DNA from: Xylona heveae TC161
Lineage: Eukaryota; Ascomycota; Xylonomycetes; Xylonales; Xylonaceae
DNA: 64,000 nucleotides
Reading direction: 5' to 3'
Assembly: GCF_001619985.1 (NCBI RefSeq)
Contig: NW_017264203.1
Coordinates: 906,081-970,080 of the forward strand
Under the pieces are notes generated by a model. The model was not told the DNA's origin and searched no databases. It was given only the letters and a program-made list of their open reading frames with translations. Positions 17,657-29,485 of the stretch are shown here, piece by piece (the first letter of the stretch is position 1; each line of letters begins with the position of its first letter). Both the position numbers and the translations under genes were made by a program.

Positions 17657-19762
17657 TTAGCCGTAGTATGCATAGTTATAGTCTTCCGTGTCGTAGAGTT
17701 GAATGATGCTGTTCAGCCTTTCGGATTCAGCAGCGAGATTCAACGGATTGGCAAAGGAGACTTGATATCGAACCCTGAAAAGTAGGAGAAACGTTGAATT
17801 AGTATTACAAGCTCACAAATTTGAATCCTGATACGCAGGCCTGCATTGACGTACCTCTGTTGATCCTGGAAATTGTCCATTTTCGCTCTGCACTTGAACA
17901 CCCATGTACGACAATTGGCTTCCTGAAACACTTCTTCGGCAGCCTTCTCGTCACTTTCCCGCAGCGCCATCAGCTGATCCGCACTCATTCCAATTATCAT
18001 CCGTCCAACATCGTCAAAACAATTGAGCCAAATCTGACCCGTGTGATCGCTGACGTTCAAACTCAGAATATATCGATACTCGGGCCGTGGGTACGATTTG
18101 TCGCATCGCTCACAACGCCATTCATCGGGCGAGACCTCGAAGACCTTCTTGTTGCATCCTTCTGAGAGGCAGGCGGGGTATGCTATGTTGTCCTGCTTGA
18201 CATATATGACAGTAGCCTTGGTAGTGAAATAATCCACGCTCTCAGAGTAACCAAGCTGCTCGTCTCGAATCTGAGCGATGCTTTTGTATACTTCATTGCG
18301 GGAACCTGCGCCCCCTGTTGCGGCAGCTAGCGAAGCATGCGACATGAAAGAGTCGGCGTGTCCTTGAGCATCGTACCATCCCTTCAGTCGATGCGCTTCG
18401 TCAATGTCAGGATCCACGGTCATGGAGCCGGAGCTTAACAAGCTCAGACTTCGGCCACCAAAATCAGAAACTTTGACACCTTTGAAAGCAATTACAGAGT
18501 CAGGTTGCACATCGAAATTTGTCGCGGTTCTACCCCAAATGGTCAAGCGGACAGAGAAATTAGTGTTGTCAACCAAGGTAAGGTCGCGTTTATCATAAGG
18601 TTTGCTCGTGGTCTTGGACACAATCTGAGAAACCTCGCCAACTTCTTTCAATACGCCAATGGTATCAATGGTGGTATCCTTTTCGACCGATTGGAGGTCT
18701 CCGATGTTGGTGAAGTTGAACCGTACTTGTGGAATGCTGTCTTGGTCTTCAGACTTCTCGACGACAGTCTCTCGCTCGAAAGTCAGTTCATAGTCGTTGT
18801 TCAGATTGGTAAATTGCTTCTTGGCCAAGTTAACGCGGCACGGACTGCTAATGTAATAAACGCAGCCTTCCTGAAACAAATCGTAAAACATGTCACACTG
18901 GTCATTAAAACCAGTCGCCTTGATCTCACCACTGTCGTCGAGTAGGTTGACGCTGAATAGCTTGCCTTCACCATTCTTGTTGTGCCATGTTTTAATGTCG
19001 GACTTGTGAGTGACACGAGCTTTGATGGTCCACTTGTGTCCGTATGGAGAAAGTGCCTCGATGGGATAAACATTTCCGTGGGAGAAAGAGGGACCACTCG
19101 AGGCGTGAGATTGTTGGACGCGGCTGGGGGCTTGATTGTAAGGGGCCGACACGTTTCCGTAGAAGCCATTGCTTGATATCACGGTTGGCTGCGGTGCGGC
19201 CTGTTCCGTTGGAGCAGGCTCCAGAGGTCTTGGCTCCCCCATCTTCTCGCACTCCCCATACTGCTCCAATACGTCCAAGTCTAACACGATAATAATCCTG
19301 TCTGGGTTAGCTTCTGCGGAAGGATACTCGTAAAGTGCCGTACTTTTTTCCTTTCACTTGGTTGGCTTGAAATGACTTCAGCCGACAGATTACACCCTTT
19401 CTGAGCTTTCCTTCATGAACGACATAATTCGCCTCTTGGAAATAGTCAATCAATCAACGTTATATGATCAATGTGGTCATGGAACCGAACGTACGAGTAG
19501 CAAGCATGCTTTGCACAAAATTCTGAATATCACTGAAGACTACCCGGTACCGCTCCGGAGAGCCCGGTTGCCCGGCAAGCGGCTTTATCTGCACACATTG
19601 AAGAATAGGATTCGCAACCGCATATTCAGGATTGTTCCCGCCGTCGAAGATTGCGCTAGACGCAGGAATAGTCAGTGCCCGCAGCCAAAAGTGTTACTCC
19701 ACCGAGAGAAGAACCTACTTTAGGGATCCTTGATCGATAATCGACGCTGCATCGGCAGCCAT
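17657..19762 (-). CDS. RFA1: Replication protein A large subunit (RPA70)
   Basis: Largest subunit of the heterotrimeric single-strand DNA-binding complex used in replication, repair and recombination in the nucleus. Exons 19762-19719, 19655-19495, 19434-19344, 19297-17855 and 17774-17657 (minus strand); 618 aa. The N-terminal OB domain (about 1-115) contains PILQCVQIKPL and NYVVHEGKLRKGVICRLKSF. A Pro/Gln/Ser linker follows. DBD-A begins near IEALSPYGHKWTIKARVTHK, and DBD-B contains LTIWGRTATNF and IAFKGVKVSDFGGRSLS. DBD-C carries the zinc ribbon C-x4-C...C-x2-C (CLSEGC ... CERC). The terminal exon gives VRYQVSFANPLNLAAESERL. A divergent promoter is shared with UBP14. Confidence 0.96.
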
Positions 19763-20312: not shown

Positions 20313-22991
20313 ATGAGTTGTACGCACGTTAACGCTGCAGGTTTGTGCGCTCTTCCTTATCGTATTTGTGATAGAAGCTCATTATTATTCAGAACTTAGG
20401 CCTCCAGGGCCTAACCAGGCAGTGTACCGCGAGGACTGTACGCAGTGTTTTGATTCGATTGTGAGCTGCTTTCATGAAGTTGCCAAGTACTACACAGAGA
20501 TACTGACATGTTCTTCAAGGACGATCCTACAGGTCTTAATGTATGTCTCTACTGTTTCAACGGTGGGTGCACGGCAGAACGGCGCCACGCCTTATTACAT
20601 TATGAAACAATCAAACACCCTCTCGTGCTCAATGTCAAGAGGACGCGAAAACATGTCAAGGTAAGTCTTGAAGCCTTGCTTTAGCCGGTTATGTCTTTGC
20701 TTGGGATTTATCGAGCTCAAGCTGATCCGCGTACTTGCAAACCTAGCGTGATGAACCTCCACAGAAGATAACAAAGCTCGCTATCGCCGCGGAAACAGAA
20801 GCCGATCGCTACGATACTCAGCTGCAAGTGAACTGCTACGAGTGCGGCGTGAGTGACATAGATCAAGCTCAGGGCAGACTTCCTGCAGTGGTAGATGGTG
20901 TTATGAAAGCCATGACCTTTTCGCGTCAGGAAGAGGTCAAAGCGTGGGAGCAGGAAATCACACCGTGCGAGCATACTCTATGCCTGCAGCAGGAGCAGTC
21001 TAGGCAAATCGCTTCTCAAGGTCTGAAAGTCATTGCATTATCTTGCTAAAGAGGGGATGCTGACATTCTTTGTTTCAAGATTTGGGTCATTGTTCGATGT
21101 GTGATCTCAAGGAGAATCTTTGGCTTTGCTTGCAGTGCGGCAAGCTTGGATGCGGACGGGCTCAATTTGGTGGCGTTGGCGGCAATTCGCATGGCCTTGC
21201 TCATGCAGATGCCACAAATCATCCGGTCGCAGTAAAATTAGGGTCCATCACGCCAGAAGGGACTGCCGACATTTACTGTTACGCCTGCAATGATGAACGA
21301 ACGGATCCAGAGCTCGCTGCACATCTGGCCCACTGGGGCATCAATATTGCTGAACGAGAAAAAACTGAGAAGAGTCTGACGGAAATGCAAATAGAGCAGA
21401 ACCTGCGATGGGAGTTCTCCATGACAACAGAGGATGGGAAGGAATTGAAGCCGGTATTTGGGCCAGGCTTGACGGGCTTGAAGAATCTTGGAAACAGCTG
21501 CTATCTTGCCAGCATTCTTCAATGTCTATTCGCATTGCCGGTATTCAGGGAAAGATACTTTTCCCATGTCGATCTCGCTCCGGCCGCGTCTAAGCCCGCT
21601 GAAGACCTGGAAACTCAATTGCGTAAATTGGCCGACGGTCTCTTGTCTGGACGCTATTCTCGCCCCGATTCGGATGTGATTGCATCAGAACACTCTGCTG
21701 AGGTTCCCTATCAAAAAGGATTGGCTCCGGCCATGCTCAAGCACTTGATTGGCAGGGGTCATGAAGAATTCTCGACGATGAGGCAGCAAGATGCTTTTGA
21801 GTTGTTGATGCATCTTTTCAAGCTGATTACCCGTTCCTCCCACCCAAAACCTTTGAACGATCCGATTCAGGATTTCCGCTTTGTGATGGAACAGCGTCTA
21901 CAATGTCTGACCTGCAAAAAGGTGAGATATCGAACCGACGAAGTGGAAAATCTGAGTATTCCGGTCCCGGCTCGTAAAGTCTCAAGAGGGGCAGAGCAGG
22001 ACACTGAGGGAAAGGATGAGTACGAGTCAGTATCCTTAAAGGAATGCCTCGACACCTTCACTGCCGAGGAAATTGTCGAGTTCAAGTGCCCCTCATGTGG
22101 CAGCCAAGACGGTGTCAGCAAACGTTCACTTTTCAAAACCTTTCCCGCTGTGCTGGCGGTCAATGCCCGCCGTTTTCAGTTGGTTAACTGGGTACCCACC
22201 AAACTTGACATACCAGTCGTGGTTAATGATGAACCATTTGAACTCGACGAATACTTATCAAAGGGACTTCAAGCAGGGGAGGAAGCATTACCCGAGGATG
22301 CTGACGATAAAAGCGGCGCCTCCAGCTTCACTCCAAATGAGGCTGCACTATCCCAGCTTGAAGCCATGGGGTTTCCCCGTGTTCGTTGTGAAAAGGCTCT
22401 TCATGCGACTGGCAATACTGATGCGGAGGTTGCAATGAACTGGCTCTTTGAACACATGGAGGATCCTGACATTGATCAACCGCTTGACCTTGGTGGCTCT
22501 ACCGGGGCTTCCGTGAATCCCGAGCAGGTCGACATGCTAGGAAGCATGGGATTCAGTGCGCCGCAGGCTCGCAAGGCTCTTAAGGAGACAGGCGGGAATG
22601 TGGAGCGAGCGGTCGAATGGCTATTCAGTCATCCCGATGACCAGGGTGATTTTGGCGATGGAGCAGGTTCTTCGGAAGAGCCAACAGGTGCTCTAGAGAA
22701 GCCGCTCGCCGGTAGTGGGGACCTTCCCGCCAGGTTTCAACTTCAGTCAATCGTCTGCCACAAGGGCGGGTCAATTCACGCAGGGTAGGTGACCTTGAGG
22801 CTTTCTATAGATCATGTAACCATTGGGATGCTAATACTATCGCTAGACACTACGTTGCATTTATTCGCAAGGAGCTTCCGGATGAGATTGGCAAATCATG
22901 GGTATTGTTCAACGACGAAAAAGTCGTCAAGGCGGTTGATGTGGACGAGATGAAAAAATTTGCATATGTGTATTTCTTCCGGCGTATATGA
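20313..22991 (+). CDS. UBP14: Ubiquitin C-terminal hydrolase Ubp14 (USP5/isopeptidase T type)
   Basis: Deubiquitinase that disassembles unanchored polyubiquitin chains, keeping free ubiquitin available for the proteasome pathway. Exons 20313-20340, 20393-20460, 20520-20660, 20747-21020, 21080-22784 and 22847-22991; 786 aa. An N-terminal variant zinc-finger region (CLYCFNGGC, HALLHYETIKHPLVLNVK) is followed by the ZnF-UBP finger (CSMCDLKENLWLCLQCGKLG, about 175-240). The Cys box GLKNLGNSCYLASILQ has its catalytic Cys near residue 311. Two UBA domains follow (SQLEAMGFPRVRCEKAL about 590-630; VDMLGSMGFSAPQARKAL about 655-695). The His box GGSIHAGHYVAFIRK is split by the last intron. The short ATG exon (MSCTHVNAA) is chosen because it joins in frame to ELRPPGPNQAVYREDCTQCF. 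Confidence 0.95.
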
Positions 22992-23751: not shown

Positions 23752-24595
23752 ATGTTTAGCAGAACTATTGCGACCGCTGCACCTCGCGCTGCGGGCCGGG
23801 TTTTTGCCTCTGCTACGCGCCCCAGCATGATTGCACCTCTTCAGCGTTCGGCTCCCGCAGCTGCCGTCTTCCAGACAAGACGAAGCTACCATGAGAAAGA
23901 TAAGTGTCCCATCTCGACAATTGGTCCCGATTAGCCTTAGATGAGTCTGGTTGCAATATTTTCCACTCGCATTTTGAGAGACGATATTTCAGCCAGCTCA
24001 AGTTGCCCATTGATATTCCGCGATATTATCCCCATCATCATCTCTTTCGAACGCTCAGCTAACATTTACATTACTGCTCGACCACTACAGTCGTCCTCGC
24101 AATGTCGGATCGATGAACAAGACCGATACCGATGTTGGAACGGGTTTGGTCGGTGCCCCGGCATGTGGCGATGTTATGAAGCTCCAGATCCGGGTCGACC
24201 CGAAGGACAACACTATTAGTGAGGTCAAGTTTAAGACTTTTGGCTGCGGCAGTGCAATTGCAAGCTCCAGTTACCTCACTGAACTCGTTCGTGGCATGAG
24301 TCTCGAGGATGCCGCCCGGATCCGAAACACCGAGATTGCCAAGGAGCTCTGCTTACCTCCCGTCAAGCGTGCGTTTCCTTTCAACTACCAAAATTTCTAT
24401 TTTTGCAATATTGTAGCTAACCTTTGAACAGTGCACTGCTCTATGCTTGCCGAGGACGCTATCAAGTCGGCCATCTCCAACTACTACACCAAGAACCCCA
24501 AGACTGCCACAACTAACCTCGGCGGCACTGGCGCTGCGATGCCCAAGATCGAGGTTGAGACCGTCAAAACCACCGACAGCCAGCCGAGTGCTTAA
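23752..24595 (+). CDS. ISU1: Mitochondrial iron-sulfur cluster scaffold Isu1 (IscU)
   Basis: Scaffold on which Nfs1-Isd11 and frataxin build [2Fe-2S] clusters in the mitochondrial matrix. Preferred exons are 23752-23899, 24075-24368 and 24432-24595; 201 aa. An Arg/Ala-rich presequence of about 45 residues leads to SYHEK, then VLDHYSRPRNVGSMNK. Cluster-ligand cysteines are in GAPACGD, FGCGSAIASS and LHCSMLAEDA, and the Hsp70-binding LPPVK motif is intact. The first junction only gives the invariant VLDHYS segment if the intron begins AT (ATAAGT) and ends AC. A GT-AG alternative, exon end 23903 to exon start 24091, is also in frame but deletes those six residues. The C-terminal tail is Thr/Gly-rich and longer than in bacteria. 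Confidence 0.95.
23900..24074 (+). other. Candidate AT-AC intron with U2-type signals in ISU1
   Basis: The 175-nt interval starts ATAAGT and ends TTAC. A CTAAC branch-like site lies at 24059-24063, 11-12 bases before the 3' end. Splicing here produces HEKVLDHYSRPRN, which matches the universal IscU N-terminal helix. The donor is not the U12 consensus ATATCCTT and the branch is not TTCCTTAAC, so it fits the rare U2-dependent AT-AC class. The overlapping GT (23904) and AG (24090) allow a frame-keeping competitor. Confidence 0.7.
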
Positions 24596-25379: not shown

Positions 25380-27232
25380 CTAGTACTCCTCCATTAGATC
25401 CTCATCCATGGGCATCTCTTCCCAAGGCGGTTCTGGGCCAGAACCTGGCTGATCCTTGGTACCCATACCTCTTCTGGATCTGCGCGAAAAATCAACAAAG
25501 TCCTTTCGCAAGCTCATGCGTACATCCATTTCCTTGACCTGATCTGCCAGCGCGAGAACTCGAGCAGTGGTCTCCTGAAGCTCTTGAAACTGCTCTTCTT
25601 CAGACACGGCGAGCGGGCCAGTCGTTGAGTCAGACGCAAAGCATAGCACTGTGTTTGACGGTTGCTTCAGTTCAAGTCCGTCATTCGATGTGGCCGGGGG
25701 TTTGCTATCTCGACATTCAAGTGAGGCGTTGAGATGGCGGTCTCTGATAAGGGACAAAATGTACTCTTGCGCTCTAGCTGGATCAGCTGGAAGAGCAGAG
25801 GTGAGCTGGCCGACTTCTTCGAGCGATAATGCAGAATAAATTTCCTCCAGTTTGATGATTGCATAGCGCCTGCGCGACTCGAGAAGCTCGAGGGTGAGCC
25901 CTTCGTTGGAGTCCTAACATCATTATATCAGGTCAGTGATTTTGAGAGAGCGATATTAAATTAGTTTCGGCGGTCTCGAGCAGGAAGAATCAGAAAAGCA
26001 ATTGACGTACCGTTTGCCATATCTCCTTTCCCGCCTCAATTTCAGCTATCAGCTCATCTATGGAACCCTTGAAATAGGTGTCGACCAGGACATCGTAATG
26101 CCTGGCTGCAGCTCTATAGGCTTTCGCTGCAAGATGCGAGGTAGCTCTTGGCATTGTCTTGGCCTATCCATCGCACATGATTAGACTGCACTCTTGTATC
26201 AGATAATATTAAGACTGTTCCAACTCACATCTCCGCCCGATAGTAGACGAACTAGAACCCATCTCTTGTATGCTATTACCATCAAATTGCTCACAGCATT
26301 GTCAACCGGTGCCATGATGATGGAAGCGAGAGTTATCTCAGCCTTTTCCCATTGTCGAAGCCCAATGTAGATCTGCGCACACCAAAGACTATATTGTAAA
26401 AACTCTTGGTAAGTCACTGCCCCAGTCAGACCAGAGCCGGTCGTAATCGTAAGAAGGGCGCCAGGCCGAATTTCATTTATGGAAGCCTGAATAGAGACTG
26501 AAGGGATATAGTCTTCTGGCGTATCCGGGAAGTGTCTTATTATGTTATCAATGACGGGAAGGGCTGGCGGATATGATCCACCCAGTAAGCAGAGCTGTGC
26601 GAAGAGATTGTGATTAGACGTATAGGTTGAGGCTGTTGGATCGAGCCGGAGAATGGCTGTCTGAACTGGATCAATGGCCATCGCAGGCTGGCGCAGGCTG
26701 TTAGAAACAGTAAGAAGGTCCATTGACTGGGGGGACACCTACATTGTTCCAGTAGATAGCAGTATTTGTGGCCGTCTCCAACACTCTGCGCCACTCCAGC
26801 CCGGCATATCGCACCTGTATGGGATCGAATTGCTCCAAAAACTCGACGATTTTCGGCCAGAGTTTCCAATCAGGCAGGACCAGAGATACGCCAGGCCGCG
26901 CGCTATCCTCTGGGCTTAATGCAACAGCATGGATATGAGCGAGGAGAGTGTAAAGGTAAGGTATCGTGTGTCTAGAAGGAACGAAAACCTGTCGAGGAGC
27001 AAGAGTGTTAGCACCAAACCGCTACAAGGTGAAAGAACAGGACAAAATTGCTGCAACTCACGTTGAGCAGGTCGCCGCCGCCAGCGACCCCTCCTAGAAG
27101 TAGATTTGCTGGTGTCTGGTTGAGGATCTGGAGTATAGTCTTGATCTGCTTTTCATATTCTGCATCTGGTAAAGGCTGCGTTGGGGGCGGATGTGGAGGA
27201 AACGCCAGTAGTTGTGACAAAAGGGCCTCCAT
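25380..27232 (-). CDS. CSN3: COP9 signalosome subunit 3
   Basis: PCI-domain subunit of the COP9 signalosome, which removes Nedd8 from cullins and controls development and secondary metabolism in moulds. Exons 27232-27062, 26988-26743, 26687-26229, 26163-26011 and 25913-25380 (minus strand); 520 aa. Starts MEALLSQLLAFPPHPPP. The helical-repeat region includes WKLWPKIVEFLEQFDPIQVR and AMAIDPVQTAILRLDPTAS. The PCI-like part covers QYSLWCAQIYIGLRQWEKAE, AKAYRAAARHYDVLVDTYF and LEEIYSALSLEEVGQL. An acidic tail ends PMDEDLMEEY. The second intron (26688-26742, 55 nt) was set by a TTCTAAC branch and CGCCAG acceptor; a nearer CAG would leave an impossible 16-nt intron. Start codon: longer in-frame upstream ATG at 27409 rejected because that stretch lacks family similarity. 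Confidence 0.9.
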
Positions 27233-27984: not shown

Positions 27985-29485
27985 ATGTCTCTCACGAATG
28001 CAACCCCTCTTGAAGTTGCGCAGGCCGCATCTTTATCTTCCCGAACCCTTGCTGTCCTCCCAAATGACGCACGCAATGAGGCATTGACTTCGATTCACAA
28101 AGCTCTCTCAGATGCAAAAGAAGAAATTTTGGCAGCGAACGCTCGAGACCTGGAAACAGCAAACAAGGCGGTTCTCAATGGAGAACTTAGCCAAAGCGTT
28201 CTCAAGCGTCTAGACCTGGGCCGCAAGGGCAAATGGGAGGACATGCTGAAGGGCATTCTGGATGTCCGAGACCTTGAAGATCCGAGTACGTTCAGACAAT
28301 GTCACAAGAACAGGAGCTACTTTGGGAAATCTTGGCTAACTGGAAGGTCTAATGCGCAGTGGGCAAGGTCACACTACGGACGCTGCTTGATGACGGCCTG
28401 ACTCTTGAGCGAGTTACTTGCCCAATCGGTGTCCTTCTGATCATCTTCGAGGCGCGTCCCGAAGTCATTGCCAATATTGCTTCTCTGGCCATTAAGTCGG
28501 GCAACGCCGCAATTCTGAAGGGTGCGTACATCTAAACTTCTCATTATATGTCTTCATGTGTTACAGAATTGACAGTCTATTCCCAACAGGCGGCAAAGAA
28601 TCCACCGAGTCCTTCGTCGCAATTTCCACCGTCATCTCACAAGCCCTGGACACAACATCCGTCCCCAAAGGCTCCATTCAACTCCTCAAGACACGCGACG
28701 TGATCCCATCTCTACTTTCGCTTGACCGATATATCGATCTTGTTATCCCCAGAGGCTCAAATGACCTCGTGCGGTACATTAAGAATAACACTCGAATTCC
28801 GGTTCTTGGCCACTCGGATGGCATTTGCCATGTCTATATTCACGATGATGCGGACAAGGACACCACTGTCAAGGTTGTAGTCGACTGTAAGACGGATTAC
28901 CCTGCCGCATGCAACGCAGTGGAGACGCTTCTTGTCCATGAACATGTTTTGTCGACAGTCCTCCCTGCTGTTGCGGAAGCTCTCTTAGCTAAGGGTGTTT
29001 CCCTGCGATGCGACGAACATTCTAAGGCTGCTCTAGCTGCTGCTCTTCCCAAGCACCTCGCAGTGCTGCTGCAGGACGTCTCAGAGGCGGACTGGGACAC
29101 TGAATACACGGACCTCATTCTCTCGATCAAGACCATCCCTACAACAGACTCTGTCTCAAAAGCCATTGATCATATCAACAGACACTCTTCACATCACACG
29201 GATGCGATCCTGACTACGTCCGAAGAGACTGCCAACAAGTTTTTGGCGGGCGTGGACAGTGCTGACGTCTTCTGGAACGCAAGCACGCGCATGGCGGACG
29301 GCATGCGCTTCGGATTTGGCACGGAGGTTGGCATCAGCACGAATAAAATTCACGCCCGAGGTCCTGTAGGTCTGGAGGGTTTGATGGTCTACAAGTACCT
29401 GATCCGGGGAAATGGCCATGCTGCTGGGGATTATTTTGAGGGCGAAGGAGGAAAGAAGTGGAAGCATCAGCGTTTGGCATTCTAG
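27985..29485 (+). CDS. PRO2: Gamma-glutamyl phosphate reductase (proline synthesis)
   Basis: Reduces L-glutamyl-5-phosphate to glutamate-5-semialdehyde with NADPH, the second step of proline synthesis from glutamate, in the cytosol. Exons 27985-28285, 28360-28521 and 28590-29485; 452 aa, the expected size. The N-terminal NADPH-binding half has [20 protein letters not shown] and [17 protein letters not shown]. The catalytic cysteine is in [19 protein letters not shown]. The C-terminal [20 protein letters not shown] and [16 protein letters not shown] are strongly conserved. It is the monofunctional fungal type, not fused to glutamate kinase. Confidence 0.96.

Follow-up and report, generated by a model that had tools for sequence, protein, structure and literature searches.

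A probable U2-type AT-AC intron in the ISU1 gene of Xylona heveae, apparently shared with other fungi and repeatedly mis-annotated

The window analysed here, a stretch of 64,000 nucleotides from the 24.3-Mb, 17-contig genome of Xylona heveae TC161, contains ISU1, the single match to the NifU_N profile in that genome. The gene, which yeast needs for life, has three coding exons, and a product of 201 amino acids results when they are joined via an AT-AC junction at the first intron. Frames elsewhere in the window match the RPA large subunit (17740-19287, minus strand), a UBP-type ubiquitin hydrolase (21070-22788, plus strand), COP9 subunit 3 (26199-26738, minus strand), an aldehyde-dehydrogenase-family enzyme (28556-29485, plus strand) and ribosomal protein L18 (29645-30340, minus strand). 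The features of ISU1 are:

23752-23899, plus strand: coding exon 1, from the targeting sequence to HEK and the first base of the V codon (sequence and homology)
23900-24074, plus strand: probable intron 1, AT-AC, 175 nt, phase 1; non-sliding, and no other junction restores HEK-V-LDHY
23900-23905, plus strand: ATAAGT donor; together with the exon flank, complementary to U1 of this genome at eight of nine positions, all but +1
24059-24063, plus strand: predicted CTAAC branch site; its A (24062) precedes the end of intron 1 by 12 nt
24073-24074, plus strand: AC acceptor, with AG absent between the branch site and the acceptor
24075-24368, plus strand: coding exon 2, which completes the V codon and runs through LDHYSRPRN to PPVK, plus the first base of the next codon
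24369-24431, plus strand: intron 2, GT-AG, 63 nt (sequence)
24432-24595, plus strand: coding exon 3, with its TAA stop at 24593-24595 (sequence)
23904-24090, plus strand: GT-AG alternative, the intron of the deposited model; keeps the frame and gives HEKDNRPRN

Exon 1 ends in CATGAGAAAG, with its last base at 23899, intron 1 ends in ATTAC at 24074, and exon 2 opens at 24075 with TGCTCGACCACTACAG, so that the 23899/24075 join reads HEKVLDHYSRPRN; the overall structure is AG/ATAAGT...CTAAC-N9-AC/. The junction is fixed, since 23899 is G where 24074 is C, and 23900 is A where 24075 is T. These flanking bases bar any sliding, and HEK-V-LDHY is therefore obtainable solely from 23899/24075. When joins were enumerated over donors at 23860-23959 and acceptors at 24000-24079, with seven dinucleotide pairs reported, the sole GT-AG join retaining LDHYSRPRN removed the end of exon 1. 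Retention of the intron in the mRNA would lead to a stop after 60 codons. An earlier note on this DNA had placed an AT-AC intron with an ATAAGT donor at 23900-24074, and these coordinates proved exact to the base, as did its proposal that removing AT...AC regains the invariant N-terminal helix of IscU: HEK-V-LDHYS is restored, and by this join alone. Its branch site also stood as a CTAAC motif, but not at the 11-12 bases before TTAC that it had given, the branch A lying 12 nt from the end of the intron itself. On the plus strand of the window, ATAAGT occurs at a frequency of 1.4e-4, and AC ends preceded by CTRAY at 8-20 nt occur at 1.25e-3; from these window frequencies, the joint chance of both signals at a junction fixed by homology is about 2e-7, a post hoc figure.

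A stwintron, in which one canonical intron interrupts a splice site of a second, could mimic AT-AC termini. Such introns are known in Pezizomycotina, according to the available part of one report (PMC5639578), and intron 1 is indeed longer than intron 2 (175 versus 63 nt). Against this, no nested GT...AG solution whose pieces are each about 30 nt or longer removes exactly 23900-24074, and under any nesting scheme the excised stretch would still begin with A and end with C. Given the 23899/24075 join, a stwintron with canonical termini is excluded, and we assign the reading as a whole a negligible probability.

The product of the AT-AC join scores 171.3 bits against NifU_N, versus 152.4 for the product of the GT-AG alternative. 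Through HEKVLDHYSRPRNVG, it aligns without gaps to the solved Isu1/ISCU chains shown, helix included; its best structural chain is 5t0v (E 3.4e-59), and its NifU_N region is collinear with Isu1/ISCU.

The deposited X. heveae protein, P0001, is the GT-AG product HEKDNRPRN, without VLDHYS, just as the earlier note had foreseen in expecting gene callers to pick the GT-AG sites and lose these residues. The GT at 23904 is formed by positions +5 and +6 of the ATAAGT hexamer. If this model were correct, 23904-24090 would be removed and ISU1 would lack VLDHYS, either as its only form or as a conserved alternative isoform. In its favor, the product equals the deposited protein, the frame is kept, and the same deletion is seen in the deposited models of Xylographa bjoerkii, Aureobasidium mustum and Cirrosporium novae-zelandiae. 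However, the missing helix residues are found in 119 of 120 homologs among the matches listed, the one protein without an intact motif being the deposited X. heveae model itself. Since the GT lies within ATAAGT and the AG within coding CTACAG, both sites would be expected to recur in relatives without needing any function. Other relatives, described below, are mis-read differently at the same spot, and two of them have a helix-bearing protein from a transcript-sized contig. Pairing with U1 also disfavors the GT donor, which in its own register matches the genome's own U1 at four of nine positions, versus eight of nine for ATAAGT. All told, we consider it very unlikely that the GT-AG model is correct.

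The U1 comparison rests on two U1 snRNA genes in the X. heveae genome, both scoring under the Rfam threshold (E 3.8e-15 and 4.4e-13) and both starting with AUACUUACCUU. The two loci (G000:C1:2312246-2312402 and G000:C10:671201-671354) have identical 5' ends and differ mainly near the 3' end. Against this 5' end, AAG/ATAAGT pairs at eight of nine positions from -3 to +6, with the mismatch solely at +1. A U2 gene containing GUAGUA was found in the genome as well, and an Rfam scan of the window itself gave no matches at gathering scores. Introns 1 and 2 have the CTAAC branch motif in common, with the A 12 nt and 11 nt, respectively, from the intron end; in the available text of an RNA-seq study of Trichoderma longibrachiatum, branch distances peak at 11-14 nt (PMC4324775).

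The AT-AC termini and phase 1 position would equally suit a U12-type intron excised by the minor spliceosome. The U12 donor RTATCC or RTATCCTT and a TCCTTAAC-like branch are nevertheless absent from intron 1, contradicting this reading at both signals. Searches of the X. heveae genome for U11, U12, U4atac and U6atac gave no matches, for families that were without a positive control, and a wide survey, in the part available, lists Ascomycota as without detected minor introns (PMC10639083). We regard minor-spliceosome excision as exceedingly improbable. The assignment of the intron to the U2-type AT-AC class rather than to U12, also made in the earlier note, is thus upheld by the U1 pairing, the CTAAC spacing and the lack of U12 motifs.

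Taken together, intron 1 is very likely a U2-type AT-AC intron, shared among lineages, spliced by the major spliceosome so as to restore the IscU helix, and repeatedly mis-annotated. Splicing of the X. heveae transcript at 23899/24075, use of the major spliceosome and a single origin are each points that we infer. In the mechanism we propose, U1 would pair with AAG/ATAAGT at all but the first intron base and U2 with CTAAC, while a terminal A-C contact would take the place of the usual G-G contact; the major spliceosome would then excise exactly 23900-24074, and the N-terminal helix of IscU would be regained.

To look for traces of the intron in other fungal ISU1 models, we assembled 223 proteins by targeted searches with the spliced protein, the mis-spliced stretch and the Xylographa form, keeping the best matches listed. 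In this targeted set, the residue following HEK is V in 209 proteins, D in 14, and nothing else; because the searches were aimed at anomalous forms, 14 of 223 is not a frequency. All 14 anomalous proteins carry the D, and all 209 others the V. The D footprint occurs in X. heveae and twelve further named records from Lecanoromycetes, Xylobotryomycetes and Dothideomycetes; models in related fungi are mis-read as well. A D after HEK implies that the last exon base, G, is followed by A and then T or C, since G/GT would read glycine; the termini of the relatives are thus deduced from codons, with the second donor base either T or C. The residue after D is K in nine proteins (AYAAR), N in three (AYAAY) and I in two (AYATH). 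A change of the first base to A in GTAAGT or GTATGT, common fungal donors, would yield exactly these K, N and I residues.

At the other end, LDHY is kept in eight of the 14 D-type models, and the residue before it is L in all eight, never V. Provided that the codon is divided in the way it is in X. heveae, the final base of the intron is then C or T rather than G. In four of the eight (P0127 LTSAA, P0139 LTPAA, P0164 LTSAA and P0207 LTSRA), the codons would allow CTAAC at the exact spacing seen in the window, where X. heveae reads LTFTL in that frame; in the other four (P0132, P0140, P0181 and P0208), CTAAC was not seen in that frame. P0208, on a 16-kb contig, appears to be a simple reading frame that continues through a 60-nt intron and runs off at intron 2. 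The models of two Xylographa species are mis-read differently: P0121 skips VLDHYS, and P0207 retains what is apparently the whole 69-nt intron as coding sequence. P0123, from Aureobasidium mustum, is without LHCSMLAED as well; these residues would follow PPVK, where intron 2 lies, and the model thus seems to be mis-spliced at both introns. In all, the ISU1 models of 13 named fungal records bear the mark of mis-reading, and HEKD before (L)LDHY or PRN offers a simple flag for it.

These footprints also bear on the possibility that a sequencing or assembly error masks a GT donor and an AG acceptor in X. heveae. Two base changes would suffice to give an ordinary GTAAGT...AG intron. Yet the errors would have to be independent and to fall at precisely both terminal bases, the footprints of 13 further proteins indicate the same non-GT start, and the last base is other than G in eight of eight readable cases, leaving such an error scarcely credible.

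Several of the anomalous models have a near-identical partner in which the helix is whole. The deposited protein P0127, from Botryosphaeria dothidea, carries 27 additional residues where intron 1 lies; P0011, whose contigs do not exceed 1,173 bases, is identical to it at 193 of 193 positions elsewhere and reads HEKVLDHYNR. Similarly, Neocucurbitaria P0140 and P0090 agree at 189 of 189 positions outside the intron, and P0090 reads HEKVLDHY. For Alternaria alternata, P0164 and P0021 agree at 187 of 188 positions outside the intron, the longest contig of P0021 being 6,974 bases. Periconia P0173 and P0069 are less alike than the other three pairs and may represent two species. Contigs below 1.4 kb, the size of an mRNA, carry 74 of the 120 matches listed. 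P0011 and P0090 are probably translated transcripts; P0021 is less clear.

Outside Dothideomycetes, the carriers are Xylona (Xylonomycetes), two Xylographa (Lecanoromycetes) and Cirrosporium (Xylobotryomycetes). Those within Dothideomycetes include Aureobasidium (Dothideales), Botryosphaeria (Botryosphaeriales) and Alternaria (Pleosporales), and further carriers are Lasiodiplodia, Cucurbitaria, Neocucurbitaria, Periconia, Didymosphaeria and Aaosphaeria, which we take to belong to Dothideomycetes as well. Among the 120 matches listed to the spliced protein, X. heveae is the sole named record without an intact motif; the others may lack the intron, have a GT-AG one, or stem from models built with RNA guidance. 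In a check for absence of the intron among 24 picked proteins, mostly on long contigs, 14 had an uninterrupted HEKVLDHY frame that ran off at the site of intron 2, immediately past CLPPVK, and in three the frame ran off after LTELVS. Uninterrupted frames past HEKVLDHY imply that those fungi have no intron 1, which argues against its universal presence; they are probably Leotiomycete-like fungi and Teloschistales.

That members of four fungal classes show footprints at this one phase-1 position suggests an old intron, and one origin with later losses seems likely. A more speculative history, which we offer tentatively and think rather unlikely, is that the intron was ancestral to Xylonomycetes, Xylobotryomycetes, Lecanoromycetes and Dothideomycetes, began as a U12-type AT-AC intron, was taken over by the major spliceosome once the minor one disappeared, and became trapped thereafter. 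Under this proposal, trapping would follow because both terminal bases would need to change simultaneously. Such a pathway has been put forward for animal sodium channels in the available portion of one study (PMC2831892); if it holds here, the ISU1 intron would offer it a natural test, coming from a lineage that would have lost its minor spliceosome. As a further part of this speculation, inefficient AT-AC splicing might tune the output of the Fe-S scaffold.

In animals, U2-type AT-AC introns include SCN4A intron 21 and introns of other sodium-channel genes, as the same available portion describes (PMC2831892), and at least 42 AT-AC introns of Caenorhabditis elegans were judged real in the part seen of another report (PMC3033335). 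Like the ISU1 intron, these have AT-AC termini and G at +5, and the major spliceosome removes them, or is taken to remove them, as we likewise assume for ISU1. The ISU1 intron differs in its host, a filamentous ascomycete, in its gene, a mitochondrial Fe-S gene with a housekeeping role, and in its unrelated position. U12-type AT-AC introns share its terminal dinucleotides, but their donor and branch motifs differ. For yeast, the available sections of one study give AT-AC as the most efficient junction after GT-AG, state that no standard intron normally uses it, and describe two Saccharomyces cases, an AT-AC protointron in SUT635 and, in RPL30, AT-AC as an alternative junction (PMC6726248). From those sections, the likeness is AT-AC use by the major spliceosome in an ascomycete; the SUT635 and RPL30 junctions are rare or alternative, whereas the ISU1 intron is frame-critical in an essential gene and recurrent across classes. 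Fungal surveys, in the portions available, report AT-AC at low frequency, as counts: it is less frequent than CT-AC in fungal annotations (PMC7072748), and accounts for 69 of 14305 junctions in T. longibrachiatum (PMC4324775). Neither of these portions names ISU1 or tracks one intron through classes. Among the matches listed to a literature search on fungal AT-AC introns or ISU1, drawn largely from outside subscription journals, the ISU1 intron is unreported. The U2-type AT-AC class is thus already known; its ISU1 member appears to be new, and would be unusual for its apparent conservation in fungi. If real, the intron would provide a genetic handle on how the spliceosome can accept A-C as its terminal pair and on why such introns persist.

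A search for fungal DNA with the exon 1/donor junction gave 15 matches on viral contigs and 71 on bacterial or archaeal ones; none of these 86 matches encodes IscU at E 1e-5, and we take them as chance. For further short AT-AC introns, the X. heveae genome was searched with the pattern AGATAAGT-N25-55-CTAAC-N5-16-AC, whose scope is this donor and introns shorter than that of ISU1. None of its three matches had open frames of more than 40 codons before and more than 30 after the join (300-nt flanks), the signature sought, and no second case of this short form emerged. A reversed control pattern gave 28 matches versus these three, making AGATAAGT..CTAAC..AC about nine times rarer than its control, perhaps by reason of base composition.
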